Made by a program: the position numbers and the translations under genes. A stretch of 64,000 nucleotides of DNA from contig NZ_FXTP01000010.1 in NCBI RefSeq assembly GCF_900182705.1, forward strand, positions 62,001-126,000, given 5' to 3'. Every line of letters starts with the position of its first letter. Within the stretch, counting starts at the first letter, position 1. Under the pieces are notes generated by a model. The model was not told the DNA's origin, did not search any database, and saw nothing but the letters and a program-made list of their open reading frames with translations. The DNA comes from Gracilimonas mengyeensis. Lineage in GTDB: Bacteria; Bacteroidota; Rhodothermia; Balneolales; Balneolaceae. Shown in pieces: positions 28,123 through 32,165 of the stretch.

Positions 28123-28318
28123 ATATATTCATCTACTAAGCTCTCAAATATTATTATAATGACTGGCGGATAGTTTAATGTATAATTAAGCTATTCGCTT
28201 TTTTTATGTGTTTTAGTAAAACAGATGATAATTATTAAGATTTATTAACGGTTGTAACATATTGTATGTCAATTGCTCCTTTAATAAACAGTAGTAGTGA
28301 TATAGGGGAGAAAAGGGG

Positions 28319-28696
28319 ATGACACAAAAAAAGATAAATAAGAAATATAGTATCCAAGTCAACGAAGTAAAGGCACGTAAGGCTAAGATCTGCCTACAAA
28401 ATAATCTTGCAGACATCGGATCTACATCTGATTGGGCAAGGCTATGCATGTGTTCAAGAACACAACTTCATCAAATAATCAATAATTACTATGGTGTAAC
28501 TCCTGCAAATATGATAAGCCGTGCCAGGTATAAAAGAATTATAACTATGCTCTATGAGAATCCTGATATGACGAGTAGTTATGCGGCTTATAAAGTTGGT
28601 TTAAGGGATGAACAGGGTATGTATAAGTTTTTGTCAAGGAAATACGGTACAAATTTTACCGAGCTAAGATATTGTATTATTAATCATCGTATTTGA
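28319..28696 (+). CDS. Stand-alone AraC-type HTH protein
   Basis: 125 residues. Residues about 35-118 match an AraC/XylS DNA-binding domain: DWARLCMCSRTQLHQIINNYYGVTPANM is the first HTH, and AAYKVGLRDEQGMYKFLSRKYGTNFTELR the second, with the usual G-x-x-(D/E)-x-x-x-(F/Y) end. There is no ligand-binding domain; only about 30 basic residues precede. It opens an A+T-rich block and lies 166 bases before the peptide gene, so it is a candidate local regulator. Confidence 0.75.
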   Translation: MTQKKINKKYSIQVNEVKARKAKICLQNNLADIGSTSDWARLCMCSRTQLHQIINNYYGVTPANMISRARYKRIITMLYENPDMTSSYAAYKVGLRDEQGMYKFLSRKYGTNFTELRYCIINHRI

Positions 28697-28862
28697 ATAT
28701 TGACCACTATTTATATACAATTTTATAAAAATTTTGAACAAATAGGATATAAATATTACATGATGGATAGAATGTCCTGTAGGATTTAAGTATGGCTTGA
28801 TATTTATTGTTTGAAGCATTTTTTGCTATAAACAAACAGTAACAAAACTTCGAGGTATGTAA

Positions 28863-29132
28863 ATGAGAAAAGTAAAAATGTATCTAGGAAGCATGATTGC
28901 AATGGCATTTTTTTGTGCTCTATTGCTCGTAAATGTGAAAGTTGGTGTTGATACAAATGCCGATGTGCGAGCAGAATATGTAGATTTTTCTATAGAACTT
29001 GCAGAAGCCTATGCTGGACCTTGCGGTAGACGGGGATGTGAAGGAAAAACGGGTGATTGTGGAGAGTCCTATGCTGTTGGGGAAATAGGCAACATAAAAT
29101 TAATGAGATACTGCAGAGGAAAAAAAGGATAA
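28863..29132 (+). CDS. NVEAL-like Cys-containing precursor peptide
   Basis: 89 residues. Hydrophobic segment about 8-28, then an acidic stretch reading DFSIELAEAYA (41-51), then a Gly/Cys-rich core GPCGRRGCEGKTGDCGES (52-69) and a basic tail. Cys54, 59, 66 and 84 follow the A-x-A site (AYA, 49-51). The layout (N-terminal hydrophobic helix, about 20 residues, alanine site, short Cys-bearing tail) resembles NVEAL-family proteins of Bacteroidota, whose name motif ends in A-L-A. No exact family match can be proven by eye. A hairpin follows, and the next genes encode a beta-propeller, a thioredoxin fold and a signal peptidase. Confidence 0.65.
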   Translation: MRKVKMYLGSMIAMAFFCALLLVNVKVGVDTNADVRAEYVDFSIELAEAYAGPCGRRGCEGKTGDCGESYAVGEIGNIKLMRYCRGKKG

Positions 29133-29161
29133 GCGAATCAAATCGCTAAACATTAACTATT

Positions 29162-29189
29162 AAAGGCGCCTGTTTTGGCAGGCGCTTTT
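29162..29189 (+). terminator. Terminator or attenuator after the peptide gene
   Basis: GCGCCTG (29166-29172) pairs with CAGGCGC (29079+100, i.e. 29179-29185) around six bases, with A residues before and TTTT (29186-29189) after. Only 20 bases separate it from the beta-propeller ATG at 29210. Partial termination here would give much more peptide message than message for the downstream genes. Confidence 0.75.
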
Positions 29190-29209
29190 AAACTTTTAGA
29201 GGGAAAATC

Positions 29210-30301
29210 ATGTCATCAAAAATATTTTTATTCACAATTTTGTCTTTCTTTATGGTGTACCATAGTGTAGCGCAAGTACCCAAAGAGTTTAAAAAGAACT
29301 GGGAATCTACTCCCCAGACTGTACAAGCACGAGTGGGCTTGGATACCTTGATTTATGATAGTGTACGTATCAATTTATTAGATTTAGGATATTTTGATGT
29401 CAATTTTTTGGATGTTGACTGGAATGGTAATCTTGGCGCTTACGATTTTGGCTTAGAACGAATCCTCTACTTTCCAAAATCAGATTATATGAATATAAAA
29501 GAATATGGAGACGGTGAGGGGAGAGGTCCGAGGGAATTTATGAATGCCTATGACTTGAAGTTTGACAAGAATCAGAATATTTGGCTTACTGATGTTGGTG
29601 AGGGACGTATAAGCCAATGGTCCAAAGAGGGTGAACTTTTACAAATATTTCCTCCTTCAAAAAAATATGTATTACCTGCAAGGCTGGCTGTTTGTGATAA
29701 TAATACATTATTTGTTATTTCTGAGCAATATTCCAATGATGGCTTTTATCAGCACATTGGTTTAGATGGAAAACATCTTAAATCCTTCAAAAAAGTGGAT
29801 AATCATTTTTTTCAATTTCCATCTTACTCCGACGGTGAATTAGATTGTGATCAACAGGGAGCTTTATATCATGCAGGTATATATAGGGAGTATATTAGGA
29901 AATATGATTACGAAGGAAACTTAGTTTTTTCAAGAAGTGTCGTAGATTTTGAACCCAATCCAAAAGATTTGATTAAGGAAGAAAAGGAAGGATTGTTTGG
30001 TAAATGGTATACTAGAATTGAAAATATTCGAAGAGCCAGCGGCGATGTAGTGGTTCAGGATGGCTTGATATATGTTGGTTTTTCAGGAAAAAAACCAGGG
30101 GAGGCCTATTTGGGTATGATTGATGTCTACTCTTCAACGGACGGTGAATATAAATACTCATTTACCTTTCCTTATCGCACCCAGGAATTTACCATATTAA
30201 ACGATAGGGTATATACTTTAGAATTTGATGAAAATGAAGACTTGTATTTAGCAGTTTATCGGCTACCTAAATTTCGACTTTTGACCGAGGGTATAAGATG
30301 A
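29210..30301 (+). CDS. Secreted 6-bladed beta-propeller protein (PF17170-like)
   Basis: 363 residues. Signal peptide about 1-20 (VYHSVAQ/VP). YGDGEGRGPREFMNAYDLKFD at about 98-118 matches the G-x-GPGEF motif of Bacteroidota 6-bladed beta-propellers, and repeated strands of the form 'IWLTDVGEGRISQWSKEGELLQIF' fit NHL-like blades. These proteins commonly sit beside NVEAL genes; their function is not known. Its last four bases overlap the next start (ATGA), so the two are coupled. Confidence 0.75.
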   Translation: MSSKIFLFTILSFFMVYHSVAQVPKEFKKNWESTPQTVQARVGLDTLIYDSVRINLLDLGYFDVNFLDVDWNGNLGAYDFGLERILYFPKSDYMNIKEYGDGEGRGPREFMNAYDLKFDKNQNIWLTDVGEGRISQWSKEGELLQIFPPSKKYVLPARLAVCDNNTLFVISEQYSNDGFYQHIGLDGKHLKSFKKVDNHFFQFPSYSDGELDCDQQGALYHAGIYREYIRKYDYEGNLVFSRSVVDFEPNPKDLIKEEKEGLFGKWYTRIENIRRASGDVVVQDGLIYVGFSGKKPGEAYLGMIDVYSSTDGEYKYSFTFPYRTQEFTILNDRVYTLEFDENEDLYLAVYRLPKFRLLTEGIR

Positions 30302-30858
30302 TGGATAAAAAATTCATAGTTGCTATAACTTTTGCACTCTTACTCTTTTTTCTGAACATCTATACACTTAACAAAAAGCAAGCCTGCACAGCTAAAATGC
30401 AAGAGGCTGAGCAAATTTATGATGTACTCAAATATCAAGAAGAAATACAGGAAATAAAGGGGGCTAAGATTTCAAGAAAGTTTTCTGAAAAATATATGAG
30501 TGGTAAGGCTGTGCGATTGGTAGCATTGTTTCCTAAAGAGTATTGCAATATATGTATGGAAATGGAAATTCCTTGGCTTGAGAAGATTGCGGATAACTAT
30601 CCTGGGAATCTATTAATAGATAATGCTGATAAAGATTATGACTTGTTATCAATAATAGGAAATAGAACAGTCAAGGAAATACCTTTTCAAGGTTTTTTGA
30701 ACGAATCGGAGATAAATCTACATAGAATTAAAGTTCCCATAATATTTTTAATAGATAAGCATGGGATTATTCATGATGTCTACATCAACGATTACAGAAA
30801 ACCTTATATCACAGATAAGTTTTATGAGAAGACCATATCATTACTCTCTTTAATTTGA
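30298..30858 (+). CDS. Membrane-anchored thioredoxin-fold protein
   Basis: 186 residues. One N-terminal membrane segment (about 7-24), then a helical stalk and a thioredoxin-like domain: LVALFPKEYCNICMEMEIPWLEKI has a CxxC (YCNIC) at the expected strand-helix junction, and KVPIIFLIDKHGIIHDVY carries the cis-Pro and final strands. It likely acts outside the cytoplasm on disulfides, possibly those of the neighbouring Cys-rich peptide (inference). Starts inside the stop of the beta-propeller gene. Confidence 0.68.
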   Translation: MMDKKFIVAITFALLLFFLNIYTLNKKQACTAKMQEAEQIYDVLKYQEEIQEIKGAKISRKFSEKYMSGKAVRLVALFPKEYCNICMEMEIPWLEKIADNYPGNLLIDNADKDYDLLSIIGNRTVKEIPFQGFLNESEINLHRIKVPIIFLIDKHGIIHDVYINDYRKPYITDKFYEKTISLLSLI

Positions 30859-30892
30859 AAGTTTAAATCCAAATAATAGCTATGCATATTGG

Positions 30893-31492
30893 ATGAAAAA
30901 ATTTCTTTTATTTGTGGGTGGTGTGATAGTGCTTAGTTGGCTGGTTAAGGGTTTGATTTTTTCGATATACCATGTGCCTACAAATTCAATGGTTCCTGTT
31001 ATAGAGAAAGATAGTTATGTACTTGTTTTAAAGTACGTTTATAACGTGAGATCACCAGAGTACTGGCCATTAACGAATAATAAATTTCCCATATTTAGTT
31101 TCATTGGTACGAGTCAAATTAGAAAAGGGGATATAGTATTATTTGATGATCCATTGGCCCCTATCATGGATCATTCAGGTGAAAAGGATGACTTGCTAAA
31201 ACGTTGTGTTGCATTTCCAGGAGATACCCTTTATCAAAAATTAGTTCTAAATGAAAAGAATGGTGAATTAAGAGTTGAATATAAACCCTGGAATACTAAA
31301 CACCTGGAACCTGATAACAATGTAAGAATGTGGGTAATACCCGGAGATTCAACTAATGGAGGCTGTTTTGTATTAGGGGATAATTATAATCACAGTTTTG
31401 ACAGCAGGTATTTTGGGGTAGTCCCGGAAAAGCTTTTGATTGGAAAGGCGGTCCTGAAAATATGGCCTTGGCCACCAAAAGTTATTTCATAA
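30893..31492 (+). CDS. Accessory signal peptidase I (S26)
   Basis: 199 residues. N-terminal membrane segment about 4-24, then box B VPTNSMVP (nucleophile Ser32), box D LLKRCVAFPGD (base Lys103) and box E GDNYNHSFDSRYFG (about 162-175), so the Ser-Lys dyad and all signature blocks are intact. It is shorter than the housekeeping leader peptidases of this phylum and sits inside the peptide island, so it may be dedicated to the island's precursor. A normal lepB is presumably elsewhere in the genome. Confidence 0.88.
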   Translation: MKKFLLFVGGVIVLSWLVKGLIFSIYHVPTNSMVPVIEKDSYVLVLKYVYNVRSPEYWPLTNNKFPIFSFIGTSQIRKGDIVLFDDPLAPIMDHSGEKDDLLKRCVAFPGDTLYQKLVLNEKNGELRVEYKPWNTKHLEPDNNVRMWVIPGDSTNGGCFVLGDNYNHSFDSRYFGVVPEKLLIGKAVLKIWPWPPKVIS

Positions 31493-31534
31493 TGGTTAAA
31501 ACCTATTTAATCGACAGCAAATAAAAATAAAGAT

Positions 31535-31894
31535 ATGAATAAAAGTAAATGGATTATGTTGTTTATACCTGCTATGCTATTGACCGTAACTTATAACTTT
31601 ACCGTTCAAGGCAGAATTGTAGCTCAGAATATATTTGACAAAGAAAAGGTCGTATACATGGGATACGAGTTTGAAAGTAGAGCGGATTCCGGTGCAATAA
31701 ATATGCTACTTCCAATTATGGAAATAATGGACATAGAAATAGAAGAGCTTGAAGAAGTCATCCTAGATTACGATAATAAGTCGGAATGTAATATTCAGAT
31801 CAAAGGTACAAGTGAAGGAAAAGAATTTGATCTTACAACTACCATTGGGGATATATCTTGCATGGAAATGAAAAAAATTAAAGAAGAGCAATAG
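31535..31894 (+). CDS. Small exported protein, unknown function
   Basis: 119 residues with an N-terminal hydrophobic stretch (about 6-20). The rest is acidic and contains two Cys (NKSECNIQI and DISCMEMKK, about 94 and 111), which could form a disulfide. No family recognised. Codon use is A+T-rich like the rest of the island. The 42-base gap to the signal peptidase gene suggests the same transcript. Confidence 0.5.
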   Translation: MNKSKWIMLFIPAMLLTVTYNFTVQGRIVAQNIFDKEKVVYMGYEFESRADSGAINMLLPIMEIMDIEIEELEEVILDYDNKSECNIQIKGTSEGKEFDLTTTIGDISCMEMKKIKEEQ

Positions 31895-31946
31895 TTCTGG
31901 CAGATAGAAGCCCAACTCTTTTAATTTAACTCAAAAGGCATAAATC

Positions 31947-32165
31947 ATGAAGACCAAGACTAAAAAATTCTTTCAGGGATGTTTATTAGGAATCGCATTT
32001 TTTGCATTGCTATTAATCGGGGAAGGAAGTCCGTTATTTATGGAGAAACCAGCTAGTTTTTTTCTTGGAATAACTTTCGGGATCCTGCTTTTCGGTTATG
32101 GTGCTGTTAAATTTCCAAGGGAATTCTGGAAGGCCTGGTTTCCAAAAAGAAATACTCAGCAATAA
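31947..32165 (+). CDS. Small membrane protein, unknown function
   Basis: 72 residues. Two hydrophobic segments (about 9-25 and 38-53) joined by a short loop, with basic ends (MKTKTKKFF and KAWFPKRNTQQ). No family recognised. Its last 10 bases overlap, tail to tail, the end of the PLP decarboxylase gene on the other strand, which marks the right border of the island. Confidence 0.5.
   Translation: MKTKTKKFFQGCLLGIAFFALLLIGEGSPLFMEKPASFFLGITFGILLFGYGAVKFPREFWKAWFPKRNTQQ

Follow-up and report, generated by a model that had tools for sequence, protein, structure and literature searches.

Organisation of the locus

The locus described here is a block of seven open reading frames, all on the forward strand, at positions 28319-32165 of a 64-kb stretch of the Gracilimonas mengyeensis genome (4.67 Mb); the whole stretch is referred to as the window. 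The block is read as a candidate cassette for a small secreted disulfide peptide that has a signal peptidase of its own and a beta-propeller protein as its partner. It lies between genes for an alcohol dehydrogenase and a pyridoxal phosphate-dependent decarboxylase (Pfam). Its GC content is 0.342, against 0.454 in the 4-kb flanks, and in 500-base steps it is 0.31-0.37 within the block and 0.38-0.51 on either side. An earlier reading, made from the letters alone and called the sequence-only reading below, had described seven same-strand genes in an A+T-rich block, and coordinates, strand and GC contrast were all confirmed. Nine other cassettes that were measured had GC contents of 0.31-0.38 against 0.37-0.47 in their flanks, each lying below its flanks, so that low GC characterises this kind of cassette in general and reaches beyond the present site.

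Gene 1 (28319..28696) encodes a stand-alone AraC-type helix-turn-helix (HTH) protein of 125 amino acids (aa). Gene 2 (28863..29132) encodes an 89-aa peptide precursor with a leader (residues 1-51, ending in EAYA) and a putative mature core (residues 52-89, beginning with GPC). The predicted cleavage site, A51/G52 (AYA/GPC), falls at codons 50-52 (29010..29018). The gap between genes 2 and 3 contains a 14-bp hairpin (29160..29191). Gene 3 (29210..30301) specifies a 363-aa NHL-type beta-propeller with a Sec-type signal and, as judged by eye, no lipobox. The start of gene 4 (30298..30858) overlaps the propeller stop by 4 nt; its product is a thioredoxin-like protein of predicted fold, membrane-anchored as judged by eye, with the motif C83-N-I-C86. 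Gene 5 (30893..31492) encodes a dedicated S26 signal peptidase of 199 aa. Genes 6 (31535..31894) and 7 (31947..32165) encode a 119-aa protein with a hydrophobic start and a 72-aa hydrophobic protein, respectively. A terminator-like hairpin at 28165-28199, between the alcohol dehydrogenase gene and gene 1, parts the cassette from its upstream neighbour.

By comparison with relatives, the conserved part of the cassette is five genes and not the seven first proposed; a search of 20 neighbourhoods of relatives at E<=0.01 returned nothing for genes 6 and 7. For five of the window proteins there was no match in PHROGs at E<=0.01.

The peptide precursor and its relatives

The precursor has a hydrophobic helix at residues 11-29, the sequence A49-Y50-A51 22 residues beyond the end of the helix, and cysteines at positions 54, 59, 66 and 84 in the tail, just as had been described from the sequence. 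It matched no Pfam family above cut-off, and nothing at all in NCBIfam, PHROGs or the PDB sequences. The window genome has a single copy of this peptide sequence.

A search with the peptide sequence matched 12 of the 128 genomes of the order. One match (G073, E 0.004) was dropped, being antisense to a GPxGP-repeat gene and accompanied by neither propeller nor S26. A profile search over 394 genomes of the phylum added G024 and a weak match in another family, G461. The full set, that is, a peptide with [AV][YF]A before GPC, a propeller, an S26 peptidase and a stand-alone AraC-type protein, was found in nine genomes of the Balneolaceae (G000, G002, G004, G007, G013, G024, G028, G030 and G091), of which G028 belongs to the same genus as the window genome. 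G036 and G090 have the core and the propeller and lack both a cassette S26 and an AYA ahead of GPC; a methyltransferase-type gene lies beside the pair in both (L044 and L045; Pfam tested in G090 only).

The core pattern C-x4-C-x-G-x4-C...C was found in 15 of the 20 peptides compared, including those of G035 and G461 and both peptides of G037, and dN/dS of the peptide was 0.08 in one close pair of relatives (G002/G007). The tripeptide [AV][YF]A stands immediately before GPC, 19-27 residues past the helix, in all nine cassettes with S26 and in none of the seven without. Based on the small residues at -3 and -1, kept in the nine S26 cassettes, and on a break in covariation between leader and core (see below), S26 cleavage is predicted between A51 and G52, which would free a 38-residue core.

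Other units of related make-up were observed. The window genome itself has two further HTH-peptide-propeller units without S26 and with unrelated Cys-containing peptides (L148, 5063-6819; L150, 4340-6218), the HTH protein of the latter scoring below the Pfam cut-off (24.1 against 33.6); near the former, two small proteins with GG/AG-type leaders lie by an ABC-ATPase-like gene, as judged by eye (L148, 1423-3832). In G015 a four-Cys peptide piece is fused to the end of a broken resistance-nodulation-division (RND) pump gene (L053, 7555-9045, minus strand), a decayed cassette which was excluded from the counts. Peptides with GG-type leaders were found with VKOR/Thioredoxin_4 (and C39-like) proteins, propellers and small HTH-like genes at L041 (3191-5513) and L059 (1992-8785); these sets have the same partners and another leader system.

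The S26 signal peptidase

The product of gene 5 matched PF10502 (E 9e-29) and TIGR02227 (93.5 bits, cut-off 47) and has the Ser/Lys dyad of signal peptidase I (S26). Ser32 and Lys103 are invariant in the eight cassette S26 proteins aligned, the ninth (G024) having been left out, which bears out the intact dyad of the sequence-only reading. The enzyme is like LepB and TraF in family and in catalytic residues; it differs from LepB in being a second, cassette-bound copy, apart in the tree, whose predicted site is displaced far beyond the helix as given above.

Each of the nine AYA-peptide genomes has one LepB of about 370 aa in addition to the cassette S26. An extra S26 was present in 9/9 of these genomes and in 6/119 others of the order (Fisher 2.6e-10, uncorrected for kinship); the 119 "peptide-free" genomes were screened with one peptide sequence and only partly with the profile, so that diverged peptides escape, as in G010, G035:C1 and G091:C63. 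In all, 17 S26 genes beyond LepB were found in 15 of the 128 genomes. Nine sit in AYA-peptide cassettes, and the three just named adjoin quite different small Cys peptides and propellers. Three more are in conjugative-looking regions (G011 with a relaxase and G064 with a TraG-type ATPase, both by Pfam, and G065 by likeness), one is beside RND genes at a contig start (G109) and one is without such neighbours (G002). The genes in G010 for an HTH protein, peptide, propeller, CxxC-type protein and S26 follow the order of the window around an unrelated peptide; there the HTH protein is LuxR-type, the propeller is backed by hhalign (E 3.9e-7), and the hhalign match of the CxxC-type protein is weak (E 0.011, probability 3.7%).

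A midpoint-rooted IQ-TREE phylogeny of 31 S26 proteins separated the LepBs (support 92), the S26 proteins of clusters with NVEALA peptides (PF14055; 99) and the cassette S26 proteins. The cassette group had an overall support of 72, with two parts at 99 each, and one odd G002 protein fell among the LepBs. The sequence-only reading had made release of the peptide tail by the S26 enzyme depend on the two genes occurring together in relatives, and in the neighbourhood survey they do.

Covariation of leader and core

Mantel tests were performed on the nine cassettes with the peptides split at A/GPC, the S26 of G024 being represented by the 154-aa piece of an apparently shifted frame. The leader followed the S26 (r 0.76, p 0.0006; partial on propeller 0.75; partial on LepB 0.61, p 0.0018), and the core followed the propeller (r 0.92, p 0.0002; partial on S26 or LepB 0.92). 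The crossed comparisons, leader with propeller (r 0.15) and core with S26 (r 0.20), were not significant, and core with LepB gave 0.15.

The cores are of two types, GRRG-like and NDNG. Propellers cluster in their tree according to the type of core (support 100 for NDNG), and the S26 tree unites three genomes of one genus (g2) across core types (97). Between G004 and G002 the S26 proteins are 77% identical and the leaders agree at 30 of 46 residues, while the propellers are 25% identical and the cores are of different type. When the six GRRG/GDAG cores were taken alone, core-propeller r was 0.86 (p 0.0125) and leader-S26 r 0.53 (p 0.014). These comparisons suggest that the cutting enzyme is matched to the discarded leader and the propeller to the released half, within one modular, fast-changing peptide system.

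The propeller and the thiol proteins

The AF2 (AlphaFold2) model of the gene 3 product (pLDDT 77.5, six-sequence alignment) was superposed on the NHL domain of Brat, the best among NHL propellers, with a VIA-align Z of 26.6 (257 residues aligned, rmsd 2.7), and a profile of 11 propeller relatives matched the TRIM71 NHL domain in the PDB (E 7.6e-21). On this model and profile it is an NHL-type beta-propeller. The sequence-only reading had the fold right and placed it with PF17170 (DUF5128), to which no match was found at E<=1. It had also proposed that the propeller receives, exports or senses the peptide; the partnership is backed by the core-propeller covariation, which does not choose among the three roles. 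A run of nine consecutive propeller genes without a recognised peptide was observed in G075 (L056).

A thioredoxin fold is plausible for the gene 4 product. It had no Pfam match, a TrxA E value of 0.058, a weak hhalign result and no match among PDB sequences; its single-sequence model had a pLDDT of 53 and, being of low confidence, was left out of the fold search. Relatives were found in 4 of the 128 genomes of the order, all four in peptide-propeller loci. The first Cys and P147 (at the cis-Pro place, as read here) are each kept in 5/5 of the proteins aligned; with two more distant proteins added, the first Cys is retained and P147 is lost.

All nine loci have either MauE or the thioredoxin-like protein. 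The mauE gene is directly upstream of the peptide in seven of the nine cassettes (identified in G091 by PF07291, 2.6e-15), and the window and G013 instead have the thioredoxin-like gene between propeller and S26. MauE adjacency was rejected for the window itself, the single MauE of that genome being on another contig. That the CxxC protein sets the disulfides, as the sequence-only reading had it, is plausible at most: the motif is intact in three of five proteins, and most cassettes carry MauE by the peptide instead.

The hairpin and the regulator

A strong hairpin in the peptide-propeller gap was found in eight of the nine S26 cassettes (z -4.5 to -7.0, 0/300 shuffles each; z -4.5 for the window), with sequences that are unrelated between cassettes despite the same place. 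Four other cassettes were shuffle-tested, of which G035, G010 and L148 had the hairpin (<=3/300) and L150 did not. Folds made without shuffles were strong in G063 and G461 (gap of 285 nt) and not in G036, G072 and G037a; the gap of G037b was too short for the test. The hairpin is probably an attenuator or a stabiliser of mRNA, and either would result in peptide in excess of its partner.

The HTH regulator noted from the sequence was upheld, gene 1 matching PF12833 (E 3e-10; HTH_18, 40.6 bits, cut-off 33.6) as an AraC-family HTH protein. No sensor domain was found in it by Pfam. Stand-alone AraC-type proteins are encoded near all nine S26-type cassettes, and HTH proteins near several others.

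Comparison with NVEALA peptides

The peptide had been called NVEAL-like. This did not hold as family membership, since no PF14055 match was found for it at E<=1, nor a genome match at E<=0.001. What it shares is the geometry, a small-residue site about 20 residues past the helix (22 here) followed by a Cys tail, and by these comparisons it is an analogue of NVEALA and not a member of that family.

PF14055 matched 4 of the 394 genomes across the phylum (two above cut-off). In the family that includes G331, which is probably Bacteroidales as judged by the matching control, Bacteroides ihuae, it matched 16 of 121 genomes, and a single genome could have as many as 17 copies. Searching residues 26-75 for the motif gave 61 NVEALA-type peptides, of which the hydrophobicity filter removed none; the helix and the end of EALA are 17-27 residues apart (median 21), and 60 of the 61 contain at least one Cys. 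An S26 gene lies within 10 kb of an NVEALA gene in 11 of the 16 genomes, such 10-kb windows covering 0.5-2.7% of the genome (nine genomes computed, with rounded positions). With LepB loci separated by hand, S26 genes outside the LepB locus were found in 13/16 NVEALA-positive and 1/20 NVEALA-negative genomes (Fisher 3e-6). In the one negative genome, G475, an NVEALA-like peptide is encoded some 4 kb away from the S26 gene, which makes the PF14055 count too low. In the positive genomes, at least five of the extra S26 genes have no PF14055 match as near as 10 kb (G539:C24, G540:C46, G546:C4, G528:C9 and G563:C9).

Thus NVEALA loci and the cassette are alike in the short precursor, single helix, distant small-residue site, Cys, propeller neighbours and nearby S26, and in MauE, which some NVEALA clusters add (L228 and L235). 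They differ in that the window peptide has no PF14055 match and is present once, against up to 17 copies per genome, and in that the window propeller has no lipobox.

An O-antigen-ligase-like membrane protein with tetratricopeptide repeats is encoded in the NVEALA/S26 regions L228, L234, L235, L236, L090, L188, L201, L210 and L225, next to the S26 gene in several of these and often with genes for a membrane fusion protein (MFP), RND pump or outer membrane factor (OMF) near. In Bacteroides thetaiotaomicron, an O-antigen ligase (BT0662), a 6-bladed beta-propeller (BT0664), a signal peptidase I (BT0667) and an RND adaptor (BT0669) are reported (PMC10434189). These are the same parts, close by number, and the sections of that paper available to us draw no link between them. 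A literature search, which covered few subscription papers and no bioRxiv, found nothing on NVEALA or on the peptide-propeller-S26 set.

Proposed function

Taken together, the data are best read as a modular secreted-peptide cassette whose product, a disulfide peptide of 38 residues, would be exported by Sec, released by the S26 and partnered by a cognate propeller; this reading is given a probability of roughly two in three. The precursor would enter the Sec route by its hydrophobic leader, and the cassette S26 rather than LepB would cut it about 22 residues beyond the helix at EAYA/GPC to yield the four-cysteine peptide. A dedicated S26 for an unusually long leader, the centre of the sequence-only reading, has good comparative support, and release of the Cys tail by this enzyme is predicted from the 9/9 co-occurrence, the leader-S26 covariation and the S26 genes in NVEALA clusters. 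Disulfides would be handled by the thioredoxin-like protein here and by MauE in most relatives. The mature peptide would have its cognate partner in the NHL propeller, which is most likely a protein of immunity or of binding/carriage and whose expression the hairpin would hold below that of the peptide, and the stand-alone AraC-type protein would regulate the set. Co-occurrence, the separate S26 clade, the two covariations and the hairpin are what the comparison of relatives provides; from them we infer the cleavage, the disulfides, passage of the outer membrane and the role of the propeller.

Several observations weigh against this proposal. The leader also tracks LepB (r 0.59, p 0.0036), as does the S26 (0.64), and therefore part of the leader-S26 signal is shared descent; with n=9 and linked genes, co-inheritance explains part of the correlations. 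In the seven MauE-adjacent cassettes alone, leader-propeller (0.46, p 0.036) and MauE-propeller (0.43, p 0.033) correlations appear. Linkage may be part-cause of the core-propeller signal, and by itself gives no account of a break inside the peptide gene at the predicted cut. As to the cut, two sites nearer to the helix, TNA 4 residues and VRA 8 residues beyond it, might serve LepB in the window peptide, and a similar site occurs two residues ahead of a Cys in two peptides that have no S26 with them (G090, AFA/FGC; G037a, GPA/AIC). In the G024 cassette S26 (L087, 8403-8984) the frame is apparently shifted immediately ahead of the catalytic Ser, owing to gene decay or a sequencing error, and the CxxC is broken in two of the five thioredoxin-like proteins aligned. 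G028 has no peptide-propeller hairpin in the shuffle test, and a consensus terminator scan does not list the window hairpin as terminator-like, which gives an mRNA stabiliser and an attenuator equal likelihood. The B. thetaiotaomicron genes listed above weigh in the opposite direction.

A sharper form of the proposal is bacteriocin-like antagonism, in which the peptide would kill relatives and the propeller would be the immunity protein. It is advanced tentatively, with chances well short of even, and would be the most economical reading of a variable core and a partner made in lesser amount: the core changes with the partner, the hairpin precedes the partner gene, and a 38-residue four-Cys product comes with a dedicated leader peptidase and thiol protein. 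Bacteroidetocins A and B (class IIf) are likewise mature peptides of 42 residues with four Cys, released by leader cleavage and encoded with a thiol oxidoreductase (PMC6671954). They differ in having a GG leader and an ABC/C39 transporter where the window has Sec and S26, and the term propeller is absent from the portion of that paper available to us. Their producers are self-inhibited, which suggests that no immunity protein exists there (PMC6671954), and the propellers that stand nine in a row without a recognised peptide (L056) also speak against an immunity role. The cassette does not fall among class II bacteriocins, with no C39 peptidase-transporter among the seven proteins and no GG before the Cys core. 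The same covariation of core and propeller would suit a pheromone whose periplasmic receptor, the propeller, feeds the AraC-type regulator, and so would the stand-alone HTH genes, found in each of the nine S26 cassettes and in several of the other cassettes. This is unlikely, as a Pfam search of the seven genes found no sensor or kinase through which an exported propeller could act on a cytoplasmic HTH protein, and the hairpin implies a receptor scarcer than its ligand.

Maturation of methylamine dehydrogenase uses MauE and the thioredoxin-like MauD. The mau cluster resembles the cassette in MauE, a thioredoxin-like protein, a Cys-rich small protein and a propeller, and with MauE by the peptide in seven of nine cassettes the peptide could be a small disulfide-bonded subunit seated on the propeller. 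Membership of the methylamine dehydrogenase family was tried and rejected, the window proteins having no match to heavy or light subunit (Pfam, E<=1), and no cofactor residues were recognised. A two-subunit protein is improbable also in view of a variable core with no invariant Trp and of a hairpin that argues against equal amounts. To about the same low degree, the peptide might stay unprocessed in the membrane, with S26 and propeller carried as passengers at a variable site that they share. In four relatives (G091, G030, G002 and G007) the cassette does sit between a sigma-54 gene (by Pfam in G091, by like starts in the others) and an RND pump gene. Against passengers, the leader-S26 covariation exceeds what LepB distance gives, and S26 genes accompany other peptides elsewhere and in NVEALA clusters. 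An RND gene is within about 6 kb of the peptide in seven of the nine cassettes, and none was found in the 64 kb of the window or in 16-20 kb round the G004 cassette. Six of the seven are one and the same pump, either the one of G028 or 69-90% identical to it, and the window genome has this pump elsewhere (L147, 88%); the adjacency may be one inherited setting.

The secreted-peptide cassette is a new form of the arrangement of leader peptide, own protease, thiol enzyme and partner protein, outside PF14055 and any bacteriocin class. Its widest extension is doubtful: a Bacteroidota-wide class of Sec-exported disulfide effector peptides, in which NVEALA and EAYA would be displaced sites read by a dedicated S26, leader and protease one constant module, core and propeller a swappable cognate pair, and RND-MFP-OMF pumps, which neighbour many of these clusters in Balneolaceae and in NVEALA genomes, the way across the outer membrane for the peptide. 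Export of the finished peptide by RND pumps is speculation from gene neighbourhood, and at the window itself nothing supports it. With the cassette, NVEALA, a Pfam motif of unexplained role, would gain a concrete meaning, as would a part of the numerous propeller genes in Bacteroidota; it also predicts that disulfide peptides can be made by a route other than those of GG-leader/C39 peptides and ordinary Sec substrates. Where the core is swapped the propeller would have to follow, and where the leader is swapped, the S26. Should the peptides prove antagonistic, narrow-range antibacterial peptides, each with its own immunity protein, would be present in Bacteroidota as a large and so far untapped resource.

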